From Haloferax sulfurifontis ATCC BAA-897 (GTDB lineage Archaea; Halobacteriota; Halobacteria; Halobacteriales; Haloferacaceae), in assembly GCF_000337835.1 (NCBI RefSeq), contig NZ_AOLM01000020.1, positions 1-64,000 on the forward strand: a DNA stretch of 64,000 nt, in the 5' to 3' direction. How positions within the stretch are numbered: the stretch's first letter is position 1; every line of letters starts with the position of its first letter. Below, in pieces: positions 9,712 through 41,018 of the stretch. A program made the position numbers and the translations under genes. A model generated the notes under the pieces. It saw only the letters and a program-made list of their open reading frames with translations, searched no databases and had not been told where the DNA came from.

Positions 9712-9926
9712 GTGACACGATTCGCCGGGCGACAAGAAAACCGTTGTTCGCCGCGCGGTGGACGGTCAGGCCGCGGTGAGGGTCGTCGCCGAGCGTGGAT
9801 GACCGATGGTAGAATCCCGCACACCGCCCCGACGAGAACGCCCTCTCGGCGGCTGGAGCGCGGACGAGAGGGGAGACGTGGCCGTCGCTCCTCTCGGAAG
9901 AAAGCGTGAGAACCGCGAGACGAGAC

Positions 9927-10391
9927 TTACTCGTAGAGCCAGGTCTCGTCGACGCGCTCGTAGTCGACGAGTTCGTCCTCGTCGAAGAAGAGCGCGATTT
10001 CGCGCTCGTTCGCGCCCTCGTCCTCGTGGTCGGAGCCGTGGATGACGTTCCGGCCGAGGTCGAGACCGTAGTCGCCGCGGATGGTTCCGGGGGCGGACTC
10101 CGCGGGGTCCGTCTCGCCCATCATGCGGCGGACCTGTCGCGTCGCGTCCTGTCCTTCCCAGACCATCGCGAAGACGGGACCGGACGTGATGAACTCGACG
10201 AGACCCTCGAAGAAGGGCTTGCCCTCGTGCTCGCCGTAGTGGTCGTGGGCGAGCTCCTCGTCGATCTGCATGAACTTGCCGGCGACCATCTTGAGACCGC
10301 GGTCCTCGAAGCGGGAGACGATGTCTCCGATGAGGCCGCGCTGGACGCCGTCGGGCTTGACCATCACGAAGGTTCGCTCAGCGTCGGACAT
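9927..10391 (-). CDS. ndk: Nucleoside-diphosphate kinase
   Basis: A 154-residue protein of normal Ndk length, starting [19 protein letters not shown]. Near the C-terminus is the family segment [17 protein letters not shown]-like (residues about 117-135 here), with the histidine that carries the phosphate. It equilibrates nucleoside di- and triphosphates in the cytoplasm using ATP. It is the last gene of the L7Ae-S28e-L24e-Ndk operon, and its ATG overlaps the L24e stop by one base. The frame continues upstream, but the family N-terminus fixes this start. Confidence 0.95.
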
Positions 10392-23542: not shown

Positions 23543-24589
23543 TCAGTAGCCGCGGGTGATGAGGTAGTCCGCGATGTCGCACAGCAGGTCGCGGGCCTCG
23601 TTGTCCGGGAGGACGTCGAGCCGCGACTTGGCCTGCTCGGTGAGGTCTTCGGCCATCTCGCGGGCGTAGTCGATGCTTCCCGCCTCGTTCAGTTCGGCGA
23701 CAGCGGCTTCAACGGCGTCTTCGGTGAGTTCCTCGGCCGTCTCGGCGTCGACGAGGTCGTCCACGTCGATGCCCTGCTGGCGCGCGTGAAGCGAGATGAT
23801 GGTCTCTTTGTTCTCCACGAGGTCCGAGCCGCGCTGTTTGCCGAGCTGGTCGGACGGCACGGTCAGGTCGAGCACGTCGTCCTGAATCTGGAACGCGCTC
23901 CCGGACTCGATGCCGTACTGGTAGAGCGCCTCGACGACCTCGTCGTCGGCGCCCATGATGACCGCCGGGACGGCGGCGGCGGTCCCGTAGAGAACCGCCG
24001 TCTTCAGCTCGACCATCTGGAGGTACTCGTCGGGGAGCACCTCGGTGCGGCGCTCGAACTCGATGTCGAGCGCCTGCCCCTCGCAGATCTGCGTGCAGGT
24101 GGTCGCGAGCCGGCGGACGGCTTCGAGGCCGTCGGCGGGGTCCGCGCCCGTCTTCGTCAGGAGTTCGAACGCCTTGGCGTACAGCGTGTCGCCGGCGAGG
24201 ATGGCGGTCGAGGTGTCGTACTCCTTGTGGACCGCCGGAACGCCGCGACGGAGGTCGTCGTCGTCCATGATGTCGTCGTGGATGAGCGTGAACGACTGGA
24301 TGACCTCGATGCTCACGGCGGCGACCAGCACGTCGATGGCGTCGCCCGCGAGCGTCGGGAACGCCCGGTAGTCCTCCGACATCGGTTCGACGTCCGCGAG
24401 GGACTCCGCGGTCAGGAGGGAGACGGTCGGCCGGAGGCGCTTGCCGCCGGCTTTCAGGAGGTACCGGGTGGCCTCGTAGAGCCGTTCGGGCTCGGCCATC
24501 GGCACGTCCTCGTCGAGCGCGTCGTTGACGAGCTCGCGTCGCTCGCGAATCGCCTCGAGCACCCGCTTTTCCGTCGCGTCGGGAGTCAT
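23543..24589 (-). CDS. idsA: Geranylgeranyl/farnesyl diphosphate synthase
   Basis: A 348-residue trans-prenyltransferase. Seen are GGKRLRP (around residue 48), the first aspartate-rich motif in LIHDDIMDDDDLRRG, and the second, FQIQDDVLDL (around 235). It condenses isopentenyl diphosphate with allylic diphosphates to make the C15-C20 chains of archaeal membrane lipids and carotenoids. Its ATG overlaps the RNase J stop by one base, so the two are in one operon. A GTG one codon earlier is the alternative start. The same rnj-idsA order occurs in several haloarchaea to my knowledge. Confidence 0.92.
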   Translation of the reverse strand: MTPDATEKRVLEAIRERRELVNDALDEDVPMAEPERLYEATRYLLKAGGKRLRPTVSLLTAESLADVEPMSEDYRAFPTLAGDAIDVLVAAVSIEVIQSFTLIHDDIMDDDDLRRGVPAVHKEYDTSTAILAGDTLYAKAFELLTKTGADPADGLEAVRRLATTCTQICEGQALDIEFERRTEVLPDEYLQMVELKTAVLYGTAAAVPAVIMGADDEVVEALYQYGIESGSAFQIQDDVLDLTVPSDQLGKQRGSDLVENKETIISLHARQQGIDVDDLVDAETAEELTEDAVEAAVAELNEAGSIDYAREMAEDLTEQAKSRLDVLPDNEARDLLCDIADYLITRGY

Positions 24590-25941
24590 CACTCCACCAG
24601 CTGGATCATGTTGCCGTTCCGCGTGACGTGGAGGTCGCGACCGAGGGCGTAGCCCTGACTCTCCGCGAGGTCCACGTACGGAGCGAAGCCTTTCAGGTTC
24701 TGGTGAGCCGGGATGACGTGCTGGGGCTGGAGCGCCTGCAACATCTCGTAGTGGCCCTCCTCGCGGAGGTGGCCCGAGACGTGAATCTCGTCGTAGATGC
24801 GCGCGCCCTGCATGCGCAGGAGGCGCTCGGACTGGTAGCGCTGGCCCTCGTTCGTCGGCTCCGGGATGACCCGCGCCGAGAAGATGACCTTGTCGCCGTC
24901 GTCGATCTCGTACGGCGTCTCGCCGCGGCCCATGCGGGTGAGCATCGCGCGCGGCTCGCCTTGGTGGCCCGTGACGATGGGCAGGTAGTTCTCCTTGCCC
25001 TCCTTCATGATTCGCTTGAAGGTGCGGTCGACGGACTTGCGGTGGCCGTACATCCCGAGGTCGTCGGGGAGGTCGACGAAGCCGAGGCGCTCGGCGGTGC
25101 CGGAGTACTTCTCCATCGAGCGGCCGAGGAGGACCGGCTGGCGGCCGATGTCCTTGGCGAACTCGACGAGCGAGGAGACCCGGGAGATGTGCGACGAGAA
25201 CGTCGTCGCCACGATGCCGCCGTCGTAGTCCTCGACGGAGGTCATCACGTCTTTGAGGTGGCGGCGCGCGACGGACTCGGAGGGCGTGCGGCCCTTCCGG
25301 CCGGCGTTCGTACAGTCTTCGATGTACGCGAGCACGCCGTTGCCCTCCCGGCCGATCTCGCGGAAGCGCTTCATGTCGATGGGGTCTTCGAGGACCGGCG
25401 AGTGGTCCATGCGCTTGTCGAGACCGTAGACGATTGCGCCCTCGGGCGTGTGGATGACCGGGTTGATGGCGTCGATGATGGAGTGGGTGACGTGGACGAA
25501 TTCGAGTTCGACCTGTCCGGAGTCACCGATGGACATCGTCGACCCGGCTTCCATCTTGACGAGGTCGTTGTTGACGTTGAACTTGTTCTCGCCTTCGATC
25601 TGCTGTTTCACCAGTTCGATGGTGAAGGGCGTGGCGACGACGGGGGCGTCGTAGCGGTGGGCGAGCTTGGAGATGGCCCCGATGTGGTCGAGGTGGCCGT
25701 GCGTGGGGACGATGGCCTGCACGTCTCCTTCGAGGTCGCTCATGACCCGGTCGTCCGGGATAGCGCCCATGTCGATGAGGTCGAGGCTGTGCATCTTTTC
25801 GGTCTCGACGTTGTCGTGGATGAGGACCTGCGACAGGTTGAGACCCATGTCGAAGACGACGACGTCGTCTCCGGCACGGACGGCCGTCATCTGACGGCCG
25901 ACTTCTTCGTATCCGCCTATGGTTGCGATTTCGATTTCCAT
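24589..25941 (-). CDS. rnj: Ribonuclease J
   Basis: A 450-residue metallo-beta-lactamase/beta-CASP nuclease. Visible are [10 protein letters not shown] (zinc ligands, around residue 80), a further catalytic histidine region near 150 (FVHVTHSI), and the C-terminal [15 protein letters not shown] and VIPAHQN motifs. It is a 5'-to-3' exoribonuclease that degrades or trims RNA. The start [15 protein letters not shown] is supported by a TATA-like ggaatatcg 27 nt upstream. The frame stays open for 27 more codons, without homology. A second TATA-like element lies about 180 nt further upstream. Confidence 0.93.
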
Positions 25942-26321
25942 GGTTTGTGTCTCGATATTCCGAGCATCGAAAGCCACGATGTGGCGAAGGTGCTCACGGA
26001 AAGACGGGTGTCTGGGGGCCACCGGCCCCGGCGTCTTGCAGCTCGTCGGTCGAATGACCCCGCGTGCGAGACGGCCCGAATCGGTCGAACTGGGCGCGCC
26101 CGCACTTACCCGCGGGTTTCTGGTACTGAGTTCTACTCACGGGGGGACTAAAAACTACGTGGGTTCACCGCGTCCGTACGCTCGCACCCGTGCGAGTCCC
26201 TCGCGCGATTCGCGGTCACCCGTCTGTTCGACGACGATTTCGCCCCCGAACGACCGGGTTCGAAGCGATTTCGCACTGTCGGTCCGGCACATTTAAGACA
26301 ACTACGAGACGGATTTGATGC
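25942..26321. other. Divergent intergenic region between RNase J and Lsm
   Basis: 380 nt. The RNase J TATA (25962-25971) and the Lsm TATA (catttaagac, 26290-26299) account for the edges. In the middle, a minus-strand TATA-like gtttttagtcc (26144-26154) predicts transcription from about 26122 toward RNase J. A GC-rich hairpin GGGGCC-ACC-GGCCCC lies near 26015-26030. No protein-coding frame looks real here. A long RNase J leader or a small RNA of 100-180 nt is possible. Confidence 0.4.
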
Positions 26322-26552
26322 ATGAGCGGCCGACCCCTCGACGTCCTCGAAGCGTCACTCGACGAGCCGGTGACGGTTCTCCTCAAGGACGGAAACGCGT
26401 ACTTCGGCGTCCTCGCTGGTTACGACCAGCACATGAACGTCGTACTCGAAGAAGCGCTGGACGAAGACACCGTGCCCGGGGATATCGAACTCGAGCAAGT
26501 CCAAGACACAACCATTATACGCGGCGATAACGTCGTCACCATCAAAGCATGA
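26322..26552 (+). CDS. lsm: Sm-like RNA-binding protein
   Basis: A 76-residue protein with the Sm fold motifs: [30 protein letters not shown] (Sm1, given by its key residues G-x-L-x-GYDxHMN) and [11 protein letters not shown] (Sm2). It should form a heptameric ring that binds U-rich RNA and small RNAs. In H. volcanii the single Lsm protein is reported to be co-transcribed with L37e. Here the stop and the L37e start overlap (ATGA), matching that. A TATA box 27 nt upstream gives a leaderless mRNA. Confidence 0.95.
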
Positions 26553-26725
26553 CGGGTGCAGGAACCCCCAGCCAAGGAAAGAAGAACAAGACGACGCACG
26601 TCAAGTGCCGTCGCTGCGGCGAGAAGTCCTACCACGTGAAGAAGAAGGTCTGCTCGTCTTGCGGCTTCGGTAAGTCGAAGAAGCGTCGGAGCTACGCCTG
26701 GCAGTCGAAGTCCGGCGACAACTAA
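26549..26725 (+). CDS. rpl37e: 50S ribosomal protein L37e
   Basis: A 58-residue basic zinc-ribbon protein starting [20 protein letters not shown]. The two CxxC pairs (CRRCG and CSSCGF) hold one zinc, and the C-terminus [15 protein letters not shown] is typical. It is a component of the large ribosomal subunit. The start overlaps the Lsm stop by four bases. It is followed within 10 nt by two hairpins that look like a terminator. Confidence 0.95.
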
Positions 26726-27115: not shown

Positions 27116-28597
27116 ATGGTAACTGGGCGGGACGACTCCCACCACCACATCGGCGGACCGACCGAGAAGTGCGGTGTCGTCGGCGTCGCACTCGGCGGTC
27201 GAGACGCCGCACGGCCCCTCTACTACTCGCTGTACGCCCTCCAGCACCGGGGCCAAGAGTCGGCAGGCATCGTCACCCACGACGGGTTCCAACAGCACAG
27301 TCACGTCCAGATGGGTCTCGTCGGCGACGCGTTCGACGCCGACGACCTCGACGGCCTGAAGGGCGAGGCCGGCATCGGTCACGTCCGCTACCCCACCGCG
27401 GGCGACGTGTCGAAGTCGTGCGCCCAGCCGTTCGCCGTCTCCTTTAAGTCGGGGTCGCTCGGCCTCGCGCACAACGGCAACCTCGTCAACGCCGACGAAC
27501 TCCGCGACGAACTGGAGAACTTCGGCCACGCCTTCACCTCCACGGGCGACACCGAGGTCATCGCCCACGACCTCGCGCGCAACCTCCTCGAAGAGGACCT
27601 CGTCCGCGCCGTCAAGCGGACCATGGAGCGCATCCACGGCTCGTACGCGCTCACCATCATGCACGACGAGACGGTCCTCGGCGTGCGTGACCCCGAAGGG
27701 AACCGTCCGCTCTGTATCGGGAAAGTCGACGACGGCTACGTGCTCGCCTCCGAGTCTGCCGCCATCGACACGCTCGACGGCGAGCTCGTCCGCGACGTGA
27801 AACCGGGCGAGCTCGTCGTCCTCGACCCCGACGGAAGCGGCTTCGACTCGTATCAACTGGTCGAACGCGACAACACGGCCCACTGCTTTTTCGAACACAT
27901 CTACTTCGCCCGCCCGGACTCCGTGATGAACGACACCCTCGTCTACGAGGTCCGCCGCGGGCTCGGCCGGAAGCTCTGGGACGAAAACGGCGTCGACACC
28001 GACGTGGTCATGCCCGTGCCCGACTCGGGCCGCGCGTTCGCCTCCGGCTACGCCGAGGCCGCACAGGAGGACGACGCGACGGTCGAGTTCGCCGAGGGGC
28101 TGATGAAGAACCGCTACGTCGGCCGGACGTTCATCATGCCGACCCAAGACGAACGCGAGCGCGCCGTCCGCCTCAAGCTCAACCCCATCAAGAGCACCGT
28201 CGAGGGGAAGTCCGTGACGCTCATCGACGACAGCATCGTCCGCGGGACGACGTCGAACCAGCTCGTCCAACTGCTGTACGACGCCGGCGCGACCGAGGTC
28301 CACATGCGCATCGGCGCGCCGCCCATCGTCGCGCCCTGCTACATGGGCATCAACATGGCCACCCGCGAGGAACTCATCGCCTCGGACAAGTCCGTCGAGG
28401 AGGTCCGCGACACCATCGACGCCGACAGCCTCGGCTACCTCTCTATCGACGCCGTCGCCGAGGTGCTCGAAAAGTCCCGCGCCGACCTCTGTCTCGGCTG
28501 TGTCACCGGCGAGTACCCCTACGACATCGACGGCGAGGAGACCGACCGCGACGTGAGTCGCCCCGTCGTCGGTGCCGAAGCGCCGCTGAGCGACTGA
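27116..28597 (+). CDS. purF: Amidophosphoribosyltransferase
   Basis: A 493-residue protein with an N-terminal glutamine amidotransferase (class II) domain. The nucleophile Cys19 in EKCGVVGVAL is preceded by an 18-residue propeptide that must be removed. A C-terminal phosphoribosyltransferase domain carries the PRPP loop (VTLIDDSIVRGTT, around residue 365). It catalyses the first committed step of purine synthesis, PRPP plus glutamine to phosphoribosylamine. Cysteines near the end (DLCLGCVTGEYP) and in APCYMG could hold the Fe-S cluster found in some PurF proteins. Candidate operator repeats lie upstream. Confidence 0.94.
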   Translation: MVTGRDDSHHHIGGPTEKCGVVGVALGGRDAARPLYYSLYALQHRGQESAGIVTHDGFQQHSHVQMGLVGDAFDADDLDGLKGEAGIGHVRYPTAGDVSKSCAQPFAVSFKSGSLGLAHNGNLVNADELRDELENFGHAFTSTGDTEVIAHDLARNLLEEDLVRAVKRTMERIHGSYALTIMHDETVLGVRDPEGNRPLCIGKVDDGYVLASESAAIDTLDGELVRDVKPGELVVLDPDGSGFDSYQLVERDNTAHCFFEHIYFARPDSVMNDTLVYEVRRGLGRKLWDENGVDTDVVMPVPDSGRAFASGYAEAAQEDDATVEFAEGLMKNRYVGRTFIMPTQDERERAVRLKLNPIKSTVEGKSVTLIDDSIVRGTTSNQLVQLLYDAGATEVHMRIGAPPIVAPCYMGINMATREELIASDKSVEEVRDTIDADSLGYLSIDAVAEVLEKSRADLCLGCVTGEYPYDIDGEETDRDVSRPVVGAEAPLSD

Positions 28598-28931
28598 GTT
28601 CCACTCGTCTCGTCCCCCCGACCTATCGCTCCGCCTGACAGTCACCGAGAGCCTCGATAGCATAATCAACGCGGCCTTTCTTTTCTCTCGCGCCCGTCGT
28701 TCGAACCGTACTCCGACTCGCCGAGGACCGGGTTGCGAGCGGAGTACGGAGTGCGAATCGACGGGGTGGTGTAACACCGCGGGAGGGCCCGCACATCCTG
28801 TCTCTGTGACCTGCCGGTCGCACCGCGTACTACCGCCCGTCCGCACCGGCCCTCGGGCCGCGCGCCCGCCGCGGGCGTCGGACGGGTACTCCCTTTGAAC
28901 GGCCGAGCGGCGGTGCTCGCCGACTCCCGCC
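28598..28931. other. Highly structured intergenic region between purF and DUF420
   Basis: 334 nt without a supported protein gene, between the ends of two convergent genes. It contains a TATA-like cataatc (28661-28667) and a dense series of inverted repeats from 28693 to about 28889, described in the ncRNA entry. Confidence 0.6.
28692..28890 (+). ncRNA. Candidate structured non-coding RNA
   Basis: A TATA-like cataatc at 28661-28667 predicts a transcript start near 28692. Exactly there a 73-nt hairpin begins (28693-28765) with about 26 base pairs: CCCGTCG, TTCG, CCGTACTCCG and CTCGC on the left arm pair with GCGAG, CGGAGTACGG, CGAA and CGACGGG on the right arm, interrupted only by small bulges. 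Further hairpins follow: GCGGG-AGGG-CCCGC (about 28779-28792), and CCCGTCCG (28835-28842) pairing with CGGACGGG near 28880, enclosing GGCCC-TC-GGGCC. This density is far above its surroundings. The strand is assigned from the TATA position only. No family is recognised. An RNA-processing signal for the convergent mRNAs is an alternative. Confidence 0.4.
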
Positions 28932-29492
28932 TCAGTAGACGACGTAAAGGAGGGCGTAGACGACGTTTCCGAGGACGAACGAGACGAGCCACAGCGAGGC
29001 GGCGACGCGGCCGAACCGGGCGTGCTCGGTGCCGAAGACCTCCGTTATCGGCCGCGTCAGCGCCAACAGCAGGACGTAGTAGACGACGGGAACGCAGACG
29101 ACGGCGAGGAGGATGTGAATCGCCAGCGTCGGGAGGTAGACGAACTGGTAGACCGCGTCGGGGCCGGGGAACTCCGCGGTCCCCTGCACGACGACCTTGT
29201 AGAGATAGAGGACGAGGAACGTCGCAAAGAGGAGAAAGGAGGCGAGCATCATGCGCCGGTGGCGCTCGATTTCGCCGCGGCGGACGAACCGGACGCCGGC
29301 GAGGATGGTGACGATGGCGACGGTGCTGATGACCGCGTTGACGTGCGGAATCGCGTTCAGCGCGGCCGCCGGCGCGGTCGGAATCGCGGCGCGGGGAATC
29401 GCGCCGAGCGCCGCGCCGAAGACGAGCGCGAGCGACAGCACCGAGAGGAGAGCGGTCAGTCCGCGGACGTGGTCGCGTGCTCGGAACTCCAT
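28932..29492 (-). CDS. DUF420 family membrane protein
   Basis: A 186-residue protein with five or six membrane helices, starting MEFRARDHVRGLTALLSVLS. Conserved histidines lie within the helices (IPHVNAVIS, ERHRRMMLASF, LAIHILLAVV), and YKVVVQGTAEFPGP falls in a loop. This pattern matches DUF420, found near haem/cytochrome oxidase assembly genes in other genomes. A haem-related role is inference from that and not from this window. The ATG at 29492 is supported by a TATA-like element (gattttgg on the minus strand) about 27 nt upstream; the frame runs further upstream without hydrophobic content. Confidence 0.8.
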   Translation of the reverse strand: MEFRARDHVRGLTALLSVLSLALVFGAALGAIPRAAIPTAPAAALNAIPHVNAVISTVAIVTILAGVRFVRRGEIERHRRMMLASFLLFATFLVLYLYKVVVQGTAEFPGPDAVYQFVYLPTLAIHILLAVVCVPVVYYVLLLALTRPITEVFGTEHARFGRVAASLWLVSFVLGNVVYALLYVVY

Positions 29493-29590
29493 GGGCGTAT
29501 TCCGGGGCCGCGAGGCCAAAATCGTTCTGTCGGCCGCCCGCGGCACGACGCCTGCAAACGCCCGACATTGCCGAGTCGAAAGGAAAGTCA

Positions 29591-29600
29591 TTTAAATTAC
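29591..29600 (+). promoter_or_regulatory. TATA box of the tRNA-Leu gene
   Basis: The element tttaaattac is centred about 27 nt before position 29622, so the precursor tRNA would carry a 5' leader of about 14 nt. It is the only AT-rich patch in this gap. Confidence 0.6.
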
Positions 29601-29635: not shown

Positions 29636-29720
29636 GCGTGGGTAGCCAAGCCAGGCCAACGGCGCAGCGTTGAGGGCGCTGTCCTGTAGAGGTCCGCCGG
29701 TTCAAATCCGGTCCCACGCA
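29636..29720 (+). tRNA. tRNA-Leu (anticodon GAG)
   Basis: An 85-nt class II tRNA. The acceptor stem GCGTGGG pairs with CCCACGC. The D stem GCC/GGC follows, then the anticodon stem CAGCG/CGCTG enclosing the seven-base loop TTGAGGG, which gives anticodon GAG (reads CUC and CUU). A long variable arm (TCCTGTAGAGGTCC region) and a T arm with loop TTCAAAT complete it. The discriminator base is A, as required for leucine. No intron and no encoded CCA are seen. A small GCATC-GCAA-GATGC hairpin overlaps the 3' end and may aid processing. Confidence 0.95.
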
Positions 29721-40169: not shown

Positions 40170-41018
40170 TCAGAACTCGATGACGCCCTCGTCGGTGATG
40201 ACCTCGTCGATGAGGTCGACCGGCGTGGCGTCGTAGGCGGGGTTCTCCAGTTCGATGCCCTCGACGGGTTCGAGCATGACCTCGCTGGGCGAGCGAATCT
40301 CGTTTTCGAAGCGGAAGCCGCCGTCGACGACCTTCGCGCCCGAGCCGACGACCGTGACCGGCACGCCGACCTCGTTGGCGGCGGCGACGAGCGGGAACGT
40401 CCCGATGCGGTTGTAGAGCGTCTCTTCGACGATGCAGTCCATGCCGATGATGACGCGGTCGCACTTCGGGAGGAACATCCCCGACGCGCCGTCGACCATC
40501 AGGTGCGGCTCGACGTCGTCGATGGCGGCGAGTTCGCGCGCGAACTTCCGGCCGAGGAAGCGCGGGCGGGCCTCCGTCACGTAGGCGGTGAGTTCCGCCC
40601 CGTCGGCGACGGCGAGTTCGACGGCCTCCATGACCGTCGAGGAGTAGTCGTGGGTGAGGAACGTCTGGCCGTCCTCGATGGTCGCGGCCGCCTGTTGGGC
40701 GGCGCGGCGCTTGCCCGTCTCGACGTTCTCGACCACGCGGTCGATGGTCGACAGGGTGAGCTCCCGCGCCTCGTCGAGGTCGTCGACCTCGCCTTGGACG
40801 CTGTGAAGCACGTCCTGCAGGGCGTTGTACAACGACGCGTGCGACGGGTTCGCCCGCTTGAGCGCGCTGACGTTGCGTTCGAGGTCGCGTTCGAACTCCT
40901 CGACGGTCGCGTAGTCGCGCTCGGTCAGTTCCGCGAGCGCCCGCGTGGCCTTGACGGCGACGACCGAGGAGCTGTGCGTCTGCATCTCGCGAATCTCCTC
41001 GATGGTCTCGTCTATCAT
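40170..41018 (-). CDS. eIF-2B alpha-like / ribose-1,5-bisphosphate isomerase family protein
   Basis: A 282-residue member of the eIF-2B alpha/beta/delta, MtnA and R15P isomerase superfamily, with an N-terminal helical bundle and a C-terminal Rossmann-like domain (GMFLPKCDRVIIGMDCIVEETLYNRIGTF). In ribose-1,5-bisphosphate isomerase and MtnA the loop reads THCN with a catalytic cysteine. Here it is THDYSS (around residue 120), closer to eukaryotic eIF-2B alpha. An isomerase role is thus doubtful. It might bind a nucleotide or sugar phosphate as a regulator. No partner gene is adjacent; it converges with the oxidoreductase. Confidence 0.75.
   Translation of the reverse strand: MIDETIEEIREMQTHSSSVVAVKATRALAELTERDYATVEEFERDLERNVSALKRANPSHASLYNALQDVLHSVQGEVDDLDEARELTLSTIDRVVENVETGKRRAAQQAAATIEDGQTFLTHDYSSTVMEAVELAVADGAELTAYVTEARPRFLGRKFARELAAIDDVEPHLMVDGASGMFLPKCDRVIIGMDCIVEETLYNRIGTFPLVAAANEVGVPVTVVGSGAKVVDGGFRFENEIRSPSEVMLEPVEGIELENPAYDATPVDLIDEVITDEGVIEF

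Follow-up and report, generated by a model that had tools for sequence, protein, structure and literature searches.

Introduction

Most haloarchaeal small RNAs (sRNAs) are entries in RNA-Seq listings and are unconserved. Of 27 sRNAs studied in Haloferax volcanii, 22 are confined to that species and have no homologue elsewhere (PMC3956466). Examples such as H. volcanii sRNA132, sRNA194 and sRNA479 (PMC3956466 and later papers) are free-standing, non-coding, intergenic and 100–200 nt long. HM13_V, an intergenic sRNA of 72 nt in Haloferax mediterranei, has HFX_2731 (purF) and HFX_2730 as its neighbours and is read from the + strand; a homologous sRNA of H. volcanii led to its prediction, RNA-Seq confirmed it (PMC5852579), and it is reported with no conserved structure, family or function. 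Archaeal H/ACA guide RNAs are also built of hairpins, and two such hairpins, both conserved in halobacteria, have been predicted to serve three pseudouridines of 23S rRNA (PMC2584109).

The locus described here is a 334-nt gap (28598–28931) separating convergent purF and DUF420 genes in the window, the whole 64-kb stretch of DNA that was analysed, which comes from a 3.8-Mb Haloferax genome. The gap carries a conserved, folded, non-coding + strand RNA element that is restricted to the genus Haloferax, as established by its conservation, synteny, compensatory changes and strand bias. Like the intergenic sRNAs above, it is a free-standing non-coding gene, here between purF and DUF420, and it differs from those of H. 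volcanii in being kept genus-wide with a covarying fold. The parts of the element and its two neighbours are listed in Table 1.

Table 1. Features of the purF-DUF420 locus and of the RNA element in the gap
Feature	Coordinates	Strand	Remarks
purF	27116–28597	+	Amidotransferase domain and weak phosphoribosyltransferase domain
Block TCACC...CGATAG	28641–28660	+	Moderately conserved; directly 5' of the box; possible BRE region
Promoter-like box CATA[AG]TCAACGCG	28661–28673	+	Invariant; 47 nt 5' of P1
T-rich stretch TTTCTTTTCTCT	28677–28688	+	Conserved; TTTCTT nearly invariant
5' leader	28690–28707	+	Variable; one invariant CGT triplet (28695–28697)
Hairpin P1	28708–28747	+	Invariant apical loop ACCGGGT (28727–28733)
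GGAGTGCG	28748–28755	+	Nearly invariant; 5' strand of tentative P0 (with 28826–28831) or PX (with tail ACTCC)
Helix P2	28760–28768 with 28794–28802	+	Two-sided changes
Inner hairpin P2b	28779–28783 with 28788–28792	+	Within P2
Hairpin P3	28806–28821	+	GUGACC-UGCC-GGUCRC
CACC[AG]CG[TC]ACY	28821–28831	+	Conserved single strand or 3' strand of P0
Terminal hairpin P4	28836–28886	+	Interior variable; closing stem in every genome (per-genome folds)
Tail ACTCCCTT	28888–28895	+	Conserved; predicted 3' end region
DUF420 protein gene	28932–29591	-	Converges on purF

Genomic location and distribution

The initial annotation of this DNA, made from the letters alone, had placed a candidate structured RNA between two convergent genes. 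This location is confirmed, with purF on the + strand and DUF420 on the - strand, and all sequence strings that the annotation named are present at the positions it assigned to them. Just 5' of purF, the region 24589–26725 encodes an apparent RNase J orthologue and an lsm-L37e pair, the RNase J assignment being based on the position beside lsm (compare HVO_2724). A tRNA-Leu (GAG) at 29636–29720 is detected by ARAGORN and by a permissive Rfam scan (44 bits) but escapes a fast Rfam scan of the whole window at the gathering threshold, so that fast scans of this kind are liable to miss haloarchaeal tRNAs. A second DUF420 protein, 44% identical, is encoded elsewhere in the genome (C19:108596-109147), and most genomes of the family have two.

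A DNA search finds the gap with its element in 15 of 15 Haloferax genomes, always between purF and DUF420; the named species carrying it are H. denitrificans, H. massiliensis, H. marisrubri, H. larsenii, H. elongans, H. profundi, H. mucosum, H. prahovense, H. marinum and H. gibbonsii. The 15 sequences, eight of them near-identical and seven divergent, make up the alignment sample. Identity to the seven divergent species is 85–100% in the CATA box and 79–89% in P3 with the strand that follows (28804–28831), compared with 50–71% at purF four-fold sites, 2–49% in the spacer after purF and 10–24% in the tail before DUF420. The block directly 5' of the box reaches 45–75%, against the 2–49% of the spacer preceding it. 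Core lengths across the genus are 127, 130, 132, 136 and 139 nt, and since these differ by numbers that are not multiples of 3, there is no conserved coding frame, in agreement with the initial annotation.

A covariance model built from the core finds a single copy in every Haloferax genome searched. Its matches comprise 15 of 170 genomes of the family and 15 of 391 of the class, all of them Haloferax, with the proviso that very diverged relatives could escape the model. No homologue was found in other genera among relatives of the order when the model was run on them with permissive filters, and the purF-DUF420 gaps of other genera, which measure 31–106 nt where the genes are adjacent, contain no such element. 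There are no paralogous copies in the source genome. Viral contigs likewise gave no match to the element, and a virus origin was rejected on this ground. Across 84,980 genomes, a pattern scan returned Haloferax and one acidobacterial metagenome bin (L076:2069-2099), where the exact match to the P1 pattern is probably due to chance. From this sequence distribution, the element appears to have arisen in, or to have been retained only by, the genus Haloferax.

Conserved secondary structure and covariation

Five helices (P1, P2, P2b, P3 and P4) are maintained across the genus. In a model of 49 pairs, which adds the tentative helix P0, 93.1% of the cells in the 15-sequence alignment are paired. Compensatory changes in the stems among relatives, proposed as a check when the locus was first annotated, are present: two-sided changes occur at 12 of the 49 pairs in 30 cells, a level reached by none of 500 shuffles, although the shuffle control ignores sequence relatedness and, with 8 of the 15 sequences near-identical, the cell counts overstate the number of independent events. 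Two-sided changes are also found with the core alone. The covariation score is 0.189, compared with 0.131 +/- 0.007 for shuffled alignments (0 of 500 as high) and at most 0.079 when the partners are slid, and the signal stems from a few clades.

P1 contains five pairs with two-sided changes, its main helix is paired in 90.8% of cells and its invariant loop is 7 nt long. P2 together with P2b (28760–28802) contributes six such pairs and P4, with 90.4% of cells paired, contributes one. P3 is paired in 98.9% of cells, with + strand G-U at two pairs and no A-C cells. Support for P3, as for P0 and the long-range helix PX, comes mostly from invariance rather than covariation.

Unconstrained RNAalifold recovers P1, P2, P2b, P3 and P4 and adds PX (GGAGU/ACUCC), which joins two invariant segments: the tail ACTCCCTT is complementary to the invariant GGAGT at 28748–28752. 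The bases of PX overlap those of P0. Neither helix has any two-sided change, the near-invariance of GGAGTGCG giving no covariation in either direction, and adding PX yields folds 0–6.5 kcal/mol worse than P1, P2 and P3 without it. The closing helix, whether P0 or PX, is accordingly given as tentative. The segment 28741–28754 is a tandem of GGAGTAC and GGAGTGC, with a copy of GTACTCC in the 3' tail (28886–28892); in close relatives, the 5' strand of P1 has the same sequence as this tail GTACTCC, and the strands could swap partners.

The alignment also favours the + strand as the one that folds, since + strand cells hold 59 G-U against 20 A-C, and A-C would read as G-U on the - strand. An RNA from the - strand was rejected on this asymmetry; the free energies of the two strands are not clearly different.

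Folding energy and the 73-nt hairpin

The initial annotation centred on a cluster of long hairpins led by one of 73 nt (28693–28765). This hairpin folds with -43.8 kcal/mol, its stability relative to G+C places it ahead of all 5116 other 73-nt windows (both strands, 64 kb), and additional hairpins are present 3' of it. The cluster is real in the source sequence, but the outer 11 bp of the leading hairpin (28693–28703 with 28754–28765) are not kept as a helix across the genus. An inner CGU/ACG of this outer stem is nearly invariant, the flanking pairs are broken in divergent species, and the 3' strand pairs within P2 instead; the inner part of the hairpin is P1 and is a genuine helix. In the seven divergent species, forcing five core pairs of the outer stem costs ~5–17 kcal/mol relative to the unconstrained fold, compared with a penalty of 0–7 kcal/mol for forcing P2. 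In the source sequence, the hairpin form has a lead of at most ~5 kcal/mol over the P2 form, which accounts for its striking appearance there. The 26-bp hairpin was also considered as a conserved alternative fold and rejected, being near-isoenergetic in the eight close genomes only and ~5–17 kcal/mol worse in the other seven.

The 231-nt region that spans the hairpins has a z score of -3.27 against its own shuffles and of -1.29 against the rest of the 64-kb window, in which 194 of 2126 windows are lower; overall, it is not unusually stable for such a G+C-rich genome. Because the region is unexceptional by this measure, folding energy alone is insufficient to call a structured RNA, and the case is made by conservation and covariation. 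Among the strongest-folding 231-nt windows of the 64 kb are 9841–10190 and 40561–40800, both overlapping with long open reading frames and probably protein-coding.

Putative promoter and predicted transcript

The box CATA[AG]TCAAC stands exactly 47 nt 5' of P1 in 15 of 15 genomes. As for the proposed TATA box of the RNA itself, the TATA-like string is real, invariant and at fixed spacing, but it departs from the TTWT of the haloarchaeal promoter consensus TTWT/CGAAA (PMC4983044). A second candidate TATA-like string, the T-rich TTTCTTTTC (28677–28685), lies in the stretch TTTCTTTTCTCT, which may itself signal the end of purF or provide a TATA-like alternative to the box. A genome search at one mismatch or fewer found no further copy of the promoter-like box, and its use as a regulon marker was rejected on this single occurrence.

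Transcription on the + strand from the putative promoter would start near 28690, or within 28690–28692, and end near 28895, these ends and the identity of the promoter being read from sequence features. HM13_V occupies the same gap, and its strand should equal that of purF, as the neighbouring locus tags in PMC5852579 are ordered as in the window; with 72 nt it is shorter than the predicted RNA of ~200 nt, and the two are matched by gap and strand, not by sequence. The locus is already among the listed expressed sRNAs of a sister species, H. mediterranei. This agreement of gap and strand, with the synteny, the two-sided changes, the strand-specific G-U pairs and the invariant box at fixed spacing, supports the call of a structured RNA with its own putative promoter.

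Comparison with H/ACA guides and other RNA families

An H/ACA guide RNA had been put forward from an 8-nt match to the peptidyl-transferase part of 23S rRNA. The string concerned is indeed present in the 23S rRNA of this genome, where GAGACAGG directly precedes a known pseudouridine (GAGACAGG-U-CGGCTGC), and the element's CCTGTCTC (28797–28804) matches these eight bases before the target U. The match is limited to this genome. Others read CCCGTCTC, CTCGTCTT or similar, CCCGTCTC is already the reading in a sister genome of 98% identity, and one Haloferax genome lacks GTCT altogether. Moreover, the bases of CCTGTCTC belong to the 3' strand of P2 and covary with the 5' strand of this helix. A proper left guide arm is missing, the sole loose candidate, GUAAC at 28771, being mismatched. 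There is no ANA (ACA) box within 30 nt after the arm, and inspection of the alignments of 15 sequences by eye revealed no conserved GA/UGA arrangement of a kink-turn or kink-loop in any hairpin. The two hairpins of PMC2584109 are predicted to serve this very pseudouridine among their three targets. Scanning this genome for further H/ACA hairpins that carry CAGCC...CCTGTCT returned four candidates, none of them convincing, against 29 from a backward control. The likeness to archaeal H/ACA guides is thus one of hairpins and chance complementarity to 23S rRNA; the element lacks the ANA box and kink-turn, its candidate guide arm is paired and its fold is multi-branched. A guide for the pseudouridine next to GAGACAGG was rejected as the identity of the element and is highly improbable.

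The Infernal search suggested alongside that idea is also negative: the element matches no family of Rfam 15, including RNase P, SRP and archaeal sRNAs, either at gathering score or at E <= 10. Neither of the box C/D strings RUGAUGA and CUGA occurs in 28690–28895, and the complement of the P1 loop (ACCCGGT) is absent from the 23S rRNA locus.

Discussion

The reading favoured here, with a probability of roughly 0.58, is that the gap encodes a structured non-coding sRNA of ~200 nt on the + strand, genus-specific, transcribed from its own promoter and acting in trans. The RNA would fold into P1 with its ACCGGGU loop, followed by a branched domain of P2/P2b and P3, then P4 and the tail ACUCCCU. 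This rigid fold would present the invariant P1 loop together with the conserved strand around P3. Its most likely mode of action would be in trans, by base pairing with putative target RNAs or by protein binding, and the Lsm protein encoded near purF is a natural candidate partner for a neighbouring sRNA.

Alternatively, such an RNA would serve as a scaffold or decoy for a protein, for example an RNA-binding regulator, rather than as a base-pairing regulator. The conservation resembles that of RNPs, with an invariant P3 and P1 loop set in a conserved fold of several helices, but the fold contains no known binding motif (kink-turn, box C/D or a long U-rich single strand inside it), and this role is considered doubtful. 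Somewhat less probable is a structured element of the purF 3' UTR that belongs to purF read-through transcripts or derives from them by processing, and affects purF mRNA stability or feedback in cis. Such an element would account for the shared strand and the position directly downstream of purF in all 15 genomes, and processing could have yielded the published RNA of 72 nt; however, the invariant promoter-like box at fixed spacing counts against it, the T-rich stretch between purF and the fold could terminate purF transcription, and other genera with purF beside DUF420 do without the element.

A bidirectional stop or insulator, in which stable hairpins (P1 and P4) act in both convergent transcripts, is improbable. 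Palindromic stems fold on both strands, the position between convergent genes is suitable and CCCTTT follows P4, yet there are no long T runs after the hairpins, very short gaps suffice in sister genera, and neither invariant loop and strand sequences nor a one-strand G-U bias is expected of a mere stop. About equally a long shot is a new genus-specific RNA family that is an RNP core or a bistable regulator. In its bistable form, the GGAGUAC and GGAGUGC repeat, both copies of CGUAC and the ACUCC of the tail would swap partners between P1, P0 and PX; if true, such a switchable structured RNA would be the first of its kind described in archaea.

For the favoured trans-acting sRNA, what is new is the genus-wide family with its fold and covariation, which is absent from Rfam and from the literature searched. 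The combined sequence, synteny and covariation evidence across the genus indicates that the element is under selection. It comes from one locus in a group that includes a tractable genetic model, H. volcanii, and the covariance model of the element could become a new Rfam family.
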